64,000 nucleotides of DNA, from contig CAMHLV010000001.1 in assembly GCA_946186115.1 (NCBI GenBank), positions 1 to 64,000 of the forward strand. The letters run 5' to 3'. Shown here piece by piece: positions 31,061-37,041 of the stretch. The first letter of the stretch is position 1. Each line of letters begins with the position of its first letter. This stretch comes from an uncultured Prevotella sp. (GTDB taxonomy: Bacteria; Bacteroidota; Bacteroidia; Bacteroidales; Bacteroidaceae). The notes beneath the pieces were generated by a model. The model searched no databases. It saw only the letters and a list, made by a program, of their open reading frames with translations, and was not told the DNA's origin. Position numbers and translations under genes: made by a program.

Positions 31061-31095
31061 AAAAGCGGGAGCATTAAAAACTCCCGCTTTTTTAT
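31061..31095. terminator. Bidirectional rho-independent terminator between rubrerythrin and DPP4
   Basis: AAAAGCGGGAG - cattaaaaa - CTCCCGCTTTTTT between convergent genes; A-run on one side, T-run on the other. Confidence 0.93.
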
Positions 31096-33293
31096 TTCAG
31101 TTTCTCATTAAAGAAATCGATACACTGTCGGAAAAGGTGATTCCTAGTGTTTCCACCATAGATACTGTGGTTGCGGTTGGTATATACCAACTGGCGGAAG
31201 TCTTTATCAGCCTGCACTAATGCTTCAGTATATTCTGCAGTGTTGCGGAAATGGACATTGTCATCAGCCAAACCATGACACAGCAACAAGGCACCATGCA
31301 ACTTTTCAGCACGATTGATGGGATTGTCATAATATCCTAACGGATTCTCCTTGGGAGTACGCATAAAGCGTTCTGAATATACTGTATCGTAGTATTTCCA
31401 AGATGTAGGAGGAGCGATGGCAATGCCGCAGCAGAATGCATTACTGCCGTCAGACATCGACATAAGCGTATTGAATCCACCGTATGACCATCCCCATATT
31501 CCAATATGTTCTTTGTCAACCCAAGGCTGGCGAGACAGCCATTGTGCCGTCTCAACCTGATCTTTTGCTTCCAGTTGTCCTAACTTCTGATAGGTACATT
31601 TTTCAAATGCTGCTCCACGACCTCCTGTGCCTCGTCCGTCAACACACACACATACAAACCCCTGCTGACTAAGCATTTGTTCGACAATGGCACCTTGTCC
31701 CGAAATGCCTATGTTCCATTTGTTGGCCACCTGCTGATTTCCGGGTCCGCCATACTGATACATCACCACAGGATAACGCTTGGAGGCATCGAAGTTGGCA
31801 GGTTTAAGCATCCAGCCGTTGAGCACAATGCCCTCAGAAGTAGTAAACTGGAAGAATTCTGTGGTACCTAAAGTATATTCAGCCAATTTAGAACGCAGAT
31901 TACTGTTGTCGATAAGCGTTGTCAGAGTCTTTCCCTTAGCGTCGCACAAGGCATAAACTGGCGGGGTATCAATATTGCTCCATGTATGAATGAAGTATTG
32001 GAAATTTCGGCTGAATGTTGCAGAGTTCCATCCGGCCTTAGGCGTAAGACACTCCTTCCGTCCGTTCTCGTGAACCACATAGACACGCTGGTCAGTAGCG
32101 CCGTTCTCATGAGAAGCAAAATAGGTGTTACCCGTAGCTTCATCATAACCATATACAGCACTAACTTCATAGTCGCCATTGTCTATCTGACGAAGCATCT
32201 GTCCGTTGAGGTTATACAAATAAAGATGCATCCAACCCGAGCGGTCGCTGGGTACAAGAATATGGCGGTCAGTAATCCGTATTCCGTCCATAGCCTCTTC
32301 GCGGATATATTTGTCAACCTTCTCTTCAACAACCTGTTTGCATACTGTTGACAGCGGATTACAAAGGAAGATACGCAGGCAGTCTTGATGGCGGTTAAGC
32401 GTATATACAGCCACTTGAGTAGGGTCATTGAGCATTATTAGACGTGGAATATATCCGTCGGCATCAACAGGAACTTGTAGCTGGCGTGTTTGTCGTGACG
32501 CTATATCAAAGCTCCACACGCTAACGGTTGAATTCTGCTCTCCTGCTATAGGATATTTGTATGAGTATTCACCAGGATATTCAGCATACTCAGTACGTTC
32601 GGGATTGAGGCCCTTGAACATTGTCATAGAGTACTGCCTAACCTTCGACTCGTCATAACGTACCCAAACCAATTGTTTGCTGTCGGCTGTGAAAACCATA
32701 GAACGGGCATTACCAAACTCCTCTTCATTCACCCAATCGGGAATACCATTGATAATAGCATTGTGACTGCCGTCTTTTGTAATCTGCACCTCAGCATTAT
32801 CATAGAGCAACTTTACGATGAAGATATTGTTGTCACGTACAAAAGCTATCTGTAATCCGTCTGGCGAGAAGAGCGGTGTCTGCTGAGGTCCCCCCTCAGA
32901 GAGAGGTACAAGACGATTATTGCGCACCGTATATATATAATAGGTGGCACAGAAAGAGTGGCGATAGATGCGTTGGGTATTAGTTTGTATAAGTATGCGC
33001 TGACCATCGGCACTCATAATATATCCGTCGATACCATCAAGTTGTGCACCCTTGGCAGTCTGTGTGTCGAAGAGTACAGAAACTTCCTTGCCGGTCTTGA
33101 ACGAATACTGAACAATGCGATGCCCATCACTACTCAGTTGAGCATAAGTCTCACCGTCTGCGAGAGCCTTGACGGCAGAAATCGTCTCACCGCGGAATGC
33201 ACCGCTTGTAATATCCTTTAGATCAAGACTGTTGCCTGCCGATATCGCTATAGACAAACAGAGTCCTAATAATAGCAATAATGTCTTTTTCAT
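31092..33293 (-). CDS. S9 family prolyl oligopeptidase, dipeptidyl-peptidase IV
   Basis: GIWGWSYGGFNTLMSMS (GxSxGG), HGLADDNVHFRN, NHSIYGG; signal peptide. Confidence 0.93.
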   Translation of the reverse strand: MKKTLLLLLGLCLSIAISAGNSLDLKDITSGAFRGETISAVKALADGETYAQLSSDGHRIVQYSFKTGKEVSVLFDTQTAKGAQLDGIDGYIMSADGQRILIQTNTQRIYRHSFCATYYIYTVRNNRLVPLSEGGPQQTPLFSPDGLQIAFVRDNNIFIVKLLYDNAEVQITKDGSHNAIINGIPDWVNEEEFGNARSMVFTADSKQLVWVRYDESKVRQYSMTMFKGLNPERTEYAEYPGEYSYKYPIAGEQNSTVSVWSFDIASRQTRQLQVPVDADGYIPRLIMLNDPTQVAVYTLNRHQDCLRIFLCNPLSTVCKQVVEEKVDKYIREEAMDGIRITDRHILVPSDRSGWMHLYLYNLNGQMLRQIDNGDYEVSAVYGYDEATGNTYFASHENGATDQRVYVVHENGRKECLTPKAGWNSATFSRNFQYFIHTWSNIDTPPVYALCDAKGKTLTTLIDNSNLRSKLAEYTLGTTEFFQFTTSEGIVLNGWMLKPANFDASKRYPVVMYQYGGPGNQQVANKWNIGISGQGAIVEQMLSQQGFVCVCVDGRGTGGRGAAFEKCTYQKLGQLEAKDQVETAQWLSRQPWVDKEHIGIWGWSYGGFNTLMSMSDGSNAFCCGIAIAPPTSWKYYDTVYSERFMRTPKENPLGYYDNPINRAEKLHGALLLCHGLADDNVHFRNTAEYTEALVQADKDFRQLVYTNRNHSIYGGNTRNHLFRQCIDFFNEKLK

Positions 33294-33301
33294 TTTATGA
33301 A

Positions 33302-34504
33302 TTATTTCTTACGCTTTCTCTTCAGTTCCAATTTCGGAATCTTGATAATCTGACCTTCCTTGATTGTGGGATTCGACGGCAGATTATTATATACTTCCAC
33401 GTAACACTCCATGTCAGGACCGAGGTTGCCGCGACAAATACTATAGAAGGTCTGACCTGCCATCACCTTCACCTCGTGATCAAGACCTACTATGCGATAG
33501 GCTCCCAAACGAACACGGGCATCTTTCTGAGCATAAATATCAACAGCCTCTTCCTTCTTGACAATAGTACTTTCAGGCTTCGCAGCTGGCTTTTCTGCTT
33601 TTTCCTCTGGCTTCACAGCTTCCTCAGCTGGCTTATCTTCCTGTTTCAGTGCTACTTCCTCAGTTGTCTTATCTATTTGTTCGGCAGAGATCACTGAAGA
33701 ATTATCAGACTTTACAGCCTGTGCATCTTTGTTACTAACGGAATCTCTGACGTAGATAGTATCAGGGACAACATCGGGCAATGGCTTATTGTTACCATAA
33801 TAATAGCCGCAATATGCAGATAGTGCCATTAGAGCTAAAACGCCTAATACCTTTAATAACTTAGAGATGACGGAAGGTTTCTTCTTCTCCTCCTGTTCGT
33901 CGTCATAGTCACGTTGTGTAGCCTTATTCTCTGTATGAAGAAACTGAGGAGTGATTACTACAGGTTCCTCAACTACAGGTACAGTCTCAACAGCAGATAC
34001 ATCTGCAATCGGCTCAGACTCTATTTGTGATTCTGCAGAAGACGGTTCCTCTGCTACGGGTTCCTCTGCTACGGGTTCTTCTGCTACGGGTTCCTCTGCT
34101 ACGGGTTCCTCTACTACGGGTTCCTCTACTACAGGCTCTTCCACAGCAGTAGGCTCTAGTTCCTGGACATCGTCAAACTCCACTCCTTCGTTCAGAACAA
34201 CAGTCTCGAACTGGGAGAAAGGCTTGTTGACAAGTTCCTTCATGGTTGAATCAGGAGTGAACGACAGTTTAGAGTGGCCGTCAATGACAACTCTCTCTCC
34301 TGTTCGTACGCTGACGCTCTCACGGGCTTCTACACCGATAATCTTGAATGTTCCCAATCCCTTCACTTTCACTGGTTCTCCTTGCCCCAGTTTCTCCATG
34401 ATGATGGAAAACATCTCGTTAACAAAGCGACTGGCATCTTTTGCTTCAAAGTGATTCTTCTCGATGAGTACTTTGGCAATTTCCTGTATAGTGACCTTTC
34501 CCAT
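33302..34504 (-). CDS. HU-like DNA-binding domain - Pro/Glu/Val linker - transmembrane helix - LysM domain protein
   Basis: N-terminus MGKVTIQEIAKVLIEKNHFEAKDASRFVNEMFSIIMEKLGQGEPVKVKGLGTFKII (HU fold); VVEEP/VAEEP repeats; TM LLKVLGVLALMALSAYCGYYYG; C-terminal LysM DHEVKVMAGQTFYSICRGNLGPDMECYVEVYNNLPSNPTIKEGQIIKIPKL. Start refined to 34504. Confidence 0.88.
   Translation of the reverse strand: MGKVTIQEIAKVLIEKNHFEAKDASRFVNEMFSIIMEKLGQGEPVKVKGLGTFKIIGVEARESVSVRTGERVVIDGHSKLSFTPDSTMKELVNKPFSQFETVVLNEGVEFDDVQELEPTAVEEPVVEEPVVEEPVAEEPVAEEPVAEEPVAEEPSSAESQIESEPIADVSAVETVPVVEEPVVITPQFLHTENKATQRDYDDEQEEKKKPSVISKLLKVLGVLALMALSAYCGYYYGNNKPLPDVVPDTIYVRDSVSNKDAQAVKSDNSSVISAEQIDKTTEEVALKQEDKPAEEAVKPEEKAEKPAAKPESTIVKKEEAVDIYAQKDARVRLGAYRIVGLDHEVKVMAGQTFYSICRGNLGPDMECYVEVYNNLPSNPTIKEGQIIKIPKLELKRKRKK
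34046..34135 (-). repeat. Six tandem copies of a 15-bp coding repeat (V[AV]EEP)
   Basis: ttcctctgctacggg with 0-2 mismatches per copy, in frame with the HU/LysM fusion ORF. Confidence 0.95.
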
Positions 34505-34506
34505 GA

Positions 34507-34791
34507 CTATTTTCCTCCCAACTTTAATTGAGCCTTCCACGTCTGACTTGGCTTAAAGTTGAGTACCAACTTTGGCGGCACCAACATGCGTTGCCCACTG
34601 GCGGGGTTGACTATGATACGTTCCAGTTTCTTCTTAGTCTCGAAGGTTCCGAAATTAGGAACCAACACCGACGTATCCTCAAGAAAAGTATCACCCATGG
34701 CATTGATGATATCTTGAACAAGAGTCTGGGTATTCTTTACACTATAACCTGTGCGTTCAGCCAGTTCGGTAATAAATTCCTTGTTATTCAT
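34507..34791 (-). CDS. HU family DNA-binding protein
   Basis: MNNKEFITELAERTGYSVKNTQTLVQDIINAMGDTFLEDTSVLVPNFGTFETKKKLERIIVNPASGQRMLVPPKLVLNFKPS; overlaps rimO stop by 4 bp. Confidence 0.9.
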   Translation of the reverse strand: MNNKEFITELAERTGYSVKNTQTLVQDIINAMGDTFLEDTSVLVPNFGTFETKKKLERIIVNPASGQRMLVPPKLVLNFKPSQTWKAQLKLGGK

Positions 34792-36092
34792 ATTGTAGTA
34801 GCGTATAAATCAAATTCTTCAGCATCAGTAATACGAGCGTTGTAGAACTCTCCTATAGTAAGATCCTCTTTCGCAGGAATTAGTACTTCTGGGTCAACTT
34901 CGGGAGAGCAGAATTCTGTACGCCCGACATACCAATCACCTTCTTGACGGTCTATGATGACGCGCAAAGTCTGTCCCACCTTTGCTCCCTCTACCTCGGC
35001 ACTAATGCCTTGCTGTATGCGCATCAGCTTGTCGAGGCGTTGCTGTTTCACCTCCTGTGAAACATCGTCAGTATAGTGTTTAGCCGAATAGGTACCTTCC
35101 TCTTCGGAATATGCAAAGGCCCCCATACGCTCGAAACGAGCCCAACGGGTAAACTCAATGAGTTGCTTGAAGTCTTCATCAGTTTCACCAGGGAAGCCTA
35201 CCATAAGTGTAGTGCGCAGGTGAATACCCGGCACTTCTTCGCGAATTCTTTTTATCAATTCGTAAGTTTCCTCTTTCGTGACATGCCGTTGCATTCGTGT
35301 CAGCATATTGTCAGAAATGTGCTGCAGGGCTATGTCGAGATACTTACAAACATTAGGATATTCCCTCATGACACGCAACAGGTCCCACGGGAAATGTGTA
35401 GGATAAGCATAGTGGAGTCTAATCCATTCCACTCCCTCTATGCGAGCCATCTGCTCAACGAGTTCGGCGATATGTTGTTTGCCGTCGATATCAACACCGT
35501 AATATGTCAGTTCCTGAGCAATAACCTGCAGTTCCTTGACACCCTGACTGACCAGCCACCTCACTTCGTCGAGAATTTCCTGCATCGGCCTGCTTTTATG
35601 ACGTCCTGTTATAATTGGTATTGCACAGTAGGCACAATGGCGATCACAGCCTTCTGATATTTTCAGGTAGGCATAGTGCGACGGTGTGGTGATATGTCGG
35701 AGTGGGAAAGTCCCATCCTTGAATTCCAAGTGAGCTTCTTCCAAATCCTTAATTAATTCTTTAAAATTGAACTTGCCATACCATCCGTCAACTTCGGGAA
35801 TCTCGGCTTCGAGGTCTGCAAGGTATCTTTCCGACAGGCAGCCCATAACATAGAGCATCTTGAGATGGCCTCGACTCTTGGCTTCGGCAAATTCTAGTAT
35901 AGTATCGATACTCTCCTGCTTGGCATCTTCGATGAAACCGCATGTATTGATAACAGCTATCTCTCCCTGCGGCGAATCAGAGTCATGGGTAACATGATAA
36001 CCGTGAGCCTCGAAGAGTGCCATCAGGCTCTCGCTGTCAACGAGATTCTTCGAGCATCCCAGCGTGATGATATCTATTGTAGGCTTATTCAT
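34788..36092 (-). CDS. rimO: Ribosomal protein S12 methylthiotransferase
   Basis: TLGCSKNLVDSESLM, radical SAM CxxxCxxC (EGCDRHCAYCAIP), C-terminal TRAM-like domain. Confidence 0.95.
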   Translation of the reverse strand: MNKPTIDIITLGCSKNLVDSESLMALFEAHGYHVTHDSDSPQGEIAVINTCGFIEDAKQESIDTILEFAEAKSRGHLKMLYVMGCLSERYLADLEAEIPEVDGWYGKFNFKELIKDLEEAHLEFKDGTFPLRHITTPSHYAYLKISEGCDRHCAYCAIPIITGRHKSRPMQEILDEVRWLVSQGVKELQVIAQELTYYGVDIDGKQHIAELVEQMARIEGVEWIRLHYAYPTHFPWDLLRVMREYPNVCKYLDIALQHISDNMLTRMQRHVTKEETYELIKRIREEVPGIHLRTTLMVGFPGETDEDFKQLIEFTRWARFERMGAFAYSEEEGTYSAKHYTDDVSQEVKQQRLDKLMRIQQGISAEVEGAKVGQTLRVIIDRQEGDWYVGRTEFCSPEVDPEVLIPAKEDLTIGEFYNARITDAEEFDLYATTI

Positions 36093-37041
36093 GCTTGAAG
36101 AGAGAATCTACAAACTGTTTCTTGTTGAAGAGCTGAAGGTCTTTCATTCCTTCACCCAATCCAATATATTTTACGGGCACCTTAAGCTGATCGCTGATAC
36201 CGATTACCACACCTCCCTTAGCAGTACCATCGAGTTTGGTGATGGCAAGACTGGTAATCTGAGTTACTGCGGCAAACTGTCTTGCCTGCTCAAATGCATT
36301 CTGACCAGTAGAACCGTCGAGAACCAGCAGAACCTCATCGGGGGCCTCGGGAATTACCTTCTTCATCACATCCTTGATTTTCTTAAGCTCGTTCATAAGT
36401 CCTACCTTGTTGTGCAAACGTCCTGCTGTGTCGATGAGCACGACATCAGCACCATTGGCTTTGGCACTCTGTAAAGTGTCGAAAGCCACTGAGGCAGGAT
36501 CGGAACCCATCTGCTGCTTTACAACGGGTACTCCAACACGTTCACCCCAAATGCAGAGTTGCTCAACAGCAGCGGCACGGAAAGTATCGGCAGCACCCAA
36601 ATACACTTTCTTTCCGGCTTCCTTGAACTGCCATGCCAGTTTTCCAATAGTAGTGGTCTTCCCCACTCCATTAACTCCAACAACAAGAATCACGTAAGGC
36701 TTGTGGTCGGTAGGCAGTTCCCAGTTGTCGTTGTCTTCAGAATTGTTTTCAGCCAAAAGGGCTGCAATCTCTTCGCGCAGGATGGCATTTAACTCACTGG
36801 TACTGACATATTTGTCGCGAGCAACACGCTGTTCGATGCGCTCAATAATCTTAAGTGTTGTCTCAACTCCCACATCAGAAGTAATCAATACTTCCTCCAG
36901 GTTGTCGAGTACGTCGTCATCCACCTTCGACTTACCGGCAACAGCTCGTGCCAGTTTATCGAACACGCTGTTCTTGGTTTTCTCCAAACCTTTATCAAGC
37001 GTCTCTTTCTTATCCTTATTAAAGAACCCAAATATACCCAT
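36085..37041 (-). CDS. ftsY: Signal recognition particle receptor
   Basis: GVNGVGKTTTIGKLA, DTFRAAAVEQL, VLIDTAGRLHNK, TKLDGTAKGGV. Confidence 0.96.
   Translation of the reverse strand: MGIFGFFNKDKKETLDKGLEKTKNSVFDKLARAVAGKSKVDDDVLDNLEEVLITSDVGVETTLKIIERIEQRVARDKYVSTSELNAILREEIAALLAENNSEDNDNWELPTDHKPYVILVVGVNGVGKTTTIGKLAWQFKEAGKKVYLGAADTFRAAAVEQLCIWGERVGVPVVKQQMGSDPASVAFDTLQSAKANGADVVLIDTAGRLHNKVGLMNELKKIKDVMKKVIPEAPDEVLLVLDGSTGQNAFEQARQFAAVTQITSLAITKLDGTAKGGVVIGISDQLKVPVKYIGLGEGMKDLQLFNKKQFVDSLFKHE

Follow-up and report, generated by a model that had tools for sequence, protein, structure and literature searches.

A conserved pair of HU-family genes in Bacteroidota, one encoding a predicted membrane protein with a LysM domain

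The window analysed here, a stretch of 64,000 nucleotides from an uncultured Prevotella sp., carries a gene for a 400-residue protein predicted to combine an N-terminal HU/IHF-type domain, a single transmembrane (TM) helix and a C-terminal LysM domain, and this gene lies directly behind that of a stand-alone HU protein (HU1), with which it forms a conserved two-gene unit newly recognised in this analysis. Sequence comparison and structure models establish the architecture, show it to be conserved, and show that the two genes form a conserved pair. The best explanation that we can offer, with about an even chance of being right, is a membrane-anchored, IHF-like HU heterodimer connecting DNA to peptidoglycan. 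The HU-TM-LysM protein is apparently a widely conserved and unstudied protein of gut bacteria and, to our knowledge, little is known about how chromosomes are positioned and segregated relative to the envelope in Bacteroidota. The two-gene module, found in Prevotella-type gut bacteria, in several further families of their order and in a second class of the phylum, is a testable candidate for chromosome-envelope attachment and offers a test of HU as a membrane-fixed heterodimer versus a soluble packaging protein.

Domain architecture of the membrane protein

The features of the gene run and of the encoded membrane protein are the following:

36085-37041, minus strand: ftsY, upstream in the run (open reading frame and neighbourhood; 8-base overlap with rimO)
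34788-36092, minus strand: rimO, upstream in the run (open reading frame and neighbourhood; 4-base overlap with HU1)
34507-34791, minus strand: HU1, the stand-alone partner HU, 94 aa, arm VNPASG (PF00216, 3.7e-21)
33302-34504, minus strand: HU-TM-LysM open reading frame, 400 aa, ATG at 34504
34214..34504, minus strand: HU/IHF-type domain of the membrane protein, residues 1-97 (Pfam, profile, fold)
34169..34213, minus strand: conserved extension after HU helix 3, residues 98-112, the end of the stretch NKPFSQFETVVLNEGVEF (conservation)
33875..34168, minus strand: acidic, Pro/Glu-rich, predicted cytoplasmic linker, residues 113-210 (low pLDDT)
33791..33871, minus strand: predicted transmembrane helix, residues 212-238 (AlphaFold2 helix, hydrophobic peak, K/R excess on the HU side)
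33539..33790, minus strand: second disordered linker, predicted periplasmic, residues 239-322 (low pLDDT)
33305..33538, minus strand: LysM domain with conserved lead strand RVRxGAYRIVG and a Lys/Arg tail, residues 323-400 (profile, relatives, fold, shuffles)

An alternative GTG start of the membrane gene is possible 36 bases upstream of the ATG. The HU/IHF-like nature of the N-terminus, claimed in the original prediction, was borne out by Pfam, where residues 5-93 matched PF00216 (Bac_DNA_binding; E=1.6e-18, 67.2 bits against a cut-off of 22.4), as did the membrane HU of all 30 first relatives, and by a profile built from the HU regions of 30 relatives, which retrieved single-chain IHF among PDB sequences (E=2e-21). 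In the AlphaFold2 model built from 30 sequences, the HU fold and a beta-alpha-alpha-beta C-terminus were predicted with confidence and the linkers were disordered; when compared to the PDB the model matched HU/IHF from E 3e-8, and its matches at E <= 0.001 were HU/IHF-type proteins. Around the extension that follows HU helix 3, residues N93, P95, F96 and F99 were invariant among the 30 relatives. The arm tip of the membrane HU in the window, ESVSVRTGE, is without the HU/IHF proline; this is no bar to PF00216 membership, since the proline of the RNPxTG motif is usual and not universal in HU/IHF and members without it are known (TF1 has Phe). The HU-TM-LysM architecture was read in 30/30 first relatives, and the same open frame in all of them and in further ones rules out a two-gene fusion created by frame or assembly error.

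The single membrane span that had been proposed finds support in the sequence, the predicted structure and the charge bias: exactly one hydrophobic segment above threshold was found in 134 of 141 distinct relatives (none in the other 7), and lysine and arginine were commoner on the HU side of the helix in 92 of the 112 untied cases. Because of this K/R excess, and because the HU domain is N-terminal (and without a signal peptide), the protein is strongly predicted to adopt an N-in/C-out topology with HU in the cytoplasm and LysM in the periplasm, as had also been proposed. The linker length differs between relatives of the membrane protein, and in the window a 15-base tandem repeat of 5.9 copies at 34044-34132 encodes the EEPVA repeats of the first linker. 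These repeats can be dismissed as a source of false domain calls, given that HU and LysM lie outside 34044-34132 and survive the profile and shuffle controls.

Assignment of the C-terminus as LysM, also part of the original prediction, depended on the family as a whole. The window sequence alone fell below the threshold of Pfam LysM (PF01476; E 0.069, 13.6 vs 20.9 bits), whereas 19 of 29 relatives matched it (best E 6.9e-8) and the family profile retrieved the LysM structure 4uz2 of T. thermophilus (E=3e-4). The isolated domain was modelled with a pLDDT of 93, and the PDB matches listed for it were almost all LysM-bearing chains, coming (among the matches listed) from bacteria, plants, fungi and phage baseplates, with a probability of ~1.0 for the best matches and E-values only in the range 0.03-0.2 because the domain is small. 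Moreover, against a profile built without the window protein and its two closest relatives, the real C-terminus scored 108 bits vs 8 bits for the best of 2000 shuffles. Taken together, these sequence and model data lead us to accept the domain as LysM. Kbp, a K+ binder, was also among the PDB matches of the C-terminal domain model, and LysM domains can bind ligands other than peptidoglycan.

A conserved gene pair and its distribution

The coordinates of the open reading frames agree with the earlier statement that the membrane gene sits behind a stand-alone HU gene and ftsY/rimO in one run of genes, HU1 and the membrane gene being 2 bases apart in the window. A stand-alone HU gene was found directly upstream of the membrane gene in 153 of 154 loci (a count into which a few genomes enter twice via overlapping loci), usually with overlapping ends or a gap within 15 bases, and this frequency rules out chance adjacency. 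The sole exception, L096, carries an in-frame HU1 remnant (L096:3835-3998) with an internal deletion and without the first helices and strands, which could be an assembly error or a real loss. The original prediction had treated the stand-alone HU as a mere neighbour; that it adjoins stands, but the comparison makes it one member of a conserved pair, so that a heterodimer becomes a likelier mechanism than a single tether protein.

The order ftsY-rimO-HU1-HU/LysM, whose synteny across Bacteroidales had been put forward as a check, was usual there, with the simple form in 67 of 80 loci and extra partial matches in most of the others. The pair of HU1 and membrane gene is kept without ftsY and rimO beside it in the other class and in L173/L174, which weakens the case for ftsY-rimO as functional partners. 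An S9/DPP4-type peptidase gene (31092-33293, same strand) starts 8 bases past the membrane gene in the window; it was rejected as a partner, being without adjacency to the membrane gene in relatives. A promoter and terminator scan gave counts no higher than in shuffles.

A single-sequence search found a match in 36 of 60 relatives, and the four same-genus genomes without a match were all at most 79% complete. With the family profile, clear members were found in about 21 of 149 near-complete genomes from the order, spread over roughly a dozen families, so that the HU-TM-LysM protein is not universal in the order; this count was drawn from E-values and open frames, and the architecture was read in other families too. 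Among the named hosts are Prevotella, Segatella, Hoylesella and Xylanibacter, and the architecture recurs through Prevotellaceae. In another class of the phylum, one family (f48) commonly carries a second subtype, whose C-termini are LysM-like. Proteins of that class, for example those at L162:6430-7917 and L166:6396-7838, carry an extra conserved, helical-looking tail after the LysM-like part (e.g. YLWAVGVFSPDLLDQ), a type of tail that is absent from the window protein. Two loci of the order of the window, L195 (frame-broken in the linker) and L202, resemble this subtype in keeping the arm proline and an extra conserved tail after the LysM region.

Divergence of the two HU domains and the proposed tether

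Phylogenetic analysis of the HU domains grouped the membrane HU sequences (45/45, plus L195; support 0.98) and the HU1 sequences (45/45; support 0.92) in separate clades, and because each of them spans two classes, the pair appears either to predate the class split or to have moved between classes as a pair. Two co-conserved, divergent subunits, as expected of an IHF-like system, are present (153/154 loci; two clades of 45/45). The intercalating arm proline occurs in HU1 at 153/153 loci, while at the corresponding arm-tip position (the proline of RNPxTG) the membrane HU has Val or Ile in all 110 Prevotellaceae loci, no proline in the 10 other Bacteroidales loci, and proline in all 34 loci of the other class. 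Among Prevotellaceae, HU1 carries basic residues at IHF-alpha positions 55, 57, 60, 76, 82 and 88; in the membrane HU, K45, K/R47 and R60 are invariant and position 88 is mostly basic, whereas 57, 76 and 82 are mostly non-basic. Such complementary residues form the pattern expected of an asymmetric heterodimer. Since the two proteins form two clades and, in the lineage of the window, the membrane HU has lost a proline and several basic residues that HU1 keeps, an obligate IHF-like heterodimer is the likeliest form of HU1 and the membrane HU.

A cytoplasmic HU domain, an external LysM domain and an adjacent HU partner suggest that the protein may tie DNA to the wall. From these sequences we infer heterodimer formation, DNA binding, wall binding and a tethering role, in the following manner: HU1 would pair with the HU domain of the membrane protein at the cytoplasmic face and would contribute most of the DNA-bending contacts of the IHF-like heterodimer, while the membrane protein would cross the inner membrane once and its LysM domain would grip periplasmic peptidoglycan. 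The resulting link between nucleoid DNA and wall could serve nucleoid positioning, segregation, or the coordination of DNA with growth and division.

The nucleoid-to-wall link of the original prediction survives in part, as the simplest reading of the anatomy, and is called into question by a membrane HU with neither the intercalating proline nor a complete basic saddle. The main doubt concerns DNA binding by the HU part. In relatives, the membrane HU domain carries hardly any net charge (mean +1.2) and the linker behind it about -36, which could repel DNA, and in Bacteroidales the arm proline and several basic residues of the saddle are lost. The main rival to the tether builds on the same observations: the HU domain may have turned into a protein-interaction domain that organises wall synthesis or division, with HU1 as its cytoplasmic protein partner, by analogy with RodZ, which shares the layout of a DNA-binding-type domain, a TM helix and a periplasmic part and whose HTH binds MreB, not DNA (PMC6946637). 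The missing proline, the near neutrality and the acidic linker all suit this explanation, which we regard as rather unlikely in view of the arm proline of HU1 at every locus, the invariant K45 and R60 of the membrane HU and the proline retained by the membrane HU throughout the other class.

The heterodimeric tether also has to be weighed against two proposals that give LysM another task. An anchor that only sequesters or localises HU1, for instance near FtsY/SRP or the division site, would use LysM for positioning with no load-bearing attachment to the wall; the landmark proteins HubP and FimV, with their periplasmic LysM, TM helix and acidic cytoplasmic region (PMC12918733), lend it plausibility, but the membrane subunit carries an HU domain and not TPR or acidic docking repeats, and we hold such an anchor to be improbable, even though sequence alone separates it poorly from the tether. 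As a sensor of the envelope or wall, the protein would read the state of peptidoglycan through LysM and the HU pair would alter transcription of nearby or global genes. IHF-type proteins are known as transcription cofactors, and here a single protein joins the periplasm to a DNA-bending-type domain; nevertheless, a signalling domain is absent, both linkers are long and disordered, and a conserved regulated gene is absent beyond the ftsY-rimO run, itself conserved only in part of the order, making a sensor quite improbable.

Comparison with known systems

RodZ resembles the window protein in its N-terminal DNA-binding-type domain, one TM helix and periplasmic C-terminus, and differs from it in having HTH in the place of HU and no LysM. 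HubP/FimV/TspA share a periplasmic LysM, one TM helix and an acidic cytoplasmic region with the window protein, but in the opposite orientation (LysM N-terminal) and without an HU domain, so that DNA is reached only via partners; Vibrio HubP acts with ParA in chromosome segregation. The window protein was rejected as a member of HubP/FimV, in which LysM and a TM helix precede a C-terminal FimV TPR domain, because its domain order is reversed and it had no TPR/FimV match. The IHF alpha/beta heterodimer and HU (PF00216) share their fold with the window pair, and IHF likewise consists of two conserved, divergent subunits, whereas in the window pair a TM helix and LysM are joined to one of the two, the genes are adjacent in one run, and the membrane subunit is without the arm proline of IHF/HU in Bacteroidales.

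The idea of joining HU, a TM helix and a wall domain is already known in Bacteroidota from the HU-CCDC81/SPOR proteins (PF18174/PF18175/PF05036) present in Pfam and in this genome, and these HU-TM-SPOR proteins are the nearest precedent for the HU-TM-LysM protein. The same genome encodes a protein of 388 aa with HU-CCDC81_bac_1, HU-CCDC81_bac_2 and SPOR (L176:869-2035, minus strand; G000:C54), and most relatives have one. Burroughs et al. 2017 are said to have linked this family to chromosome partitioning, as a predicted role; that work lay outside the scope of our keyword literature search for a protein with HU and LysM, which found nothing relevant. Both systems have N-terminal HU-superfamily domain(s) and a C-terminal domain of peptidoglycan-binding type, but in the window protein there is a single HU domain of the classic PF00216 kind, LysM takes the place of SPOR, and the adjacent HU gene is conserved. 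Membership of the HU-CCDC81/SPOR family itself was rejected, with PF18175 at 15.6 bits against a cut-off of 35, no PF18174 and no SPOR. Overall, our fullest reading, to which we give slightly less than an even chance, is that of a nucleoid-associated protein anchored to the wall, in which a soluble subunit and a subunit attached to peptidoglycan across the inner membrane would make up an obligate HU heterodimer of ancient standing in Bacteroidota (two classes); if true, it would provide direct attachment of the chromosome to the wall in this phylum, alongside the HU-SPOR system.
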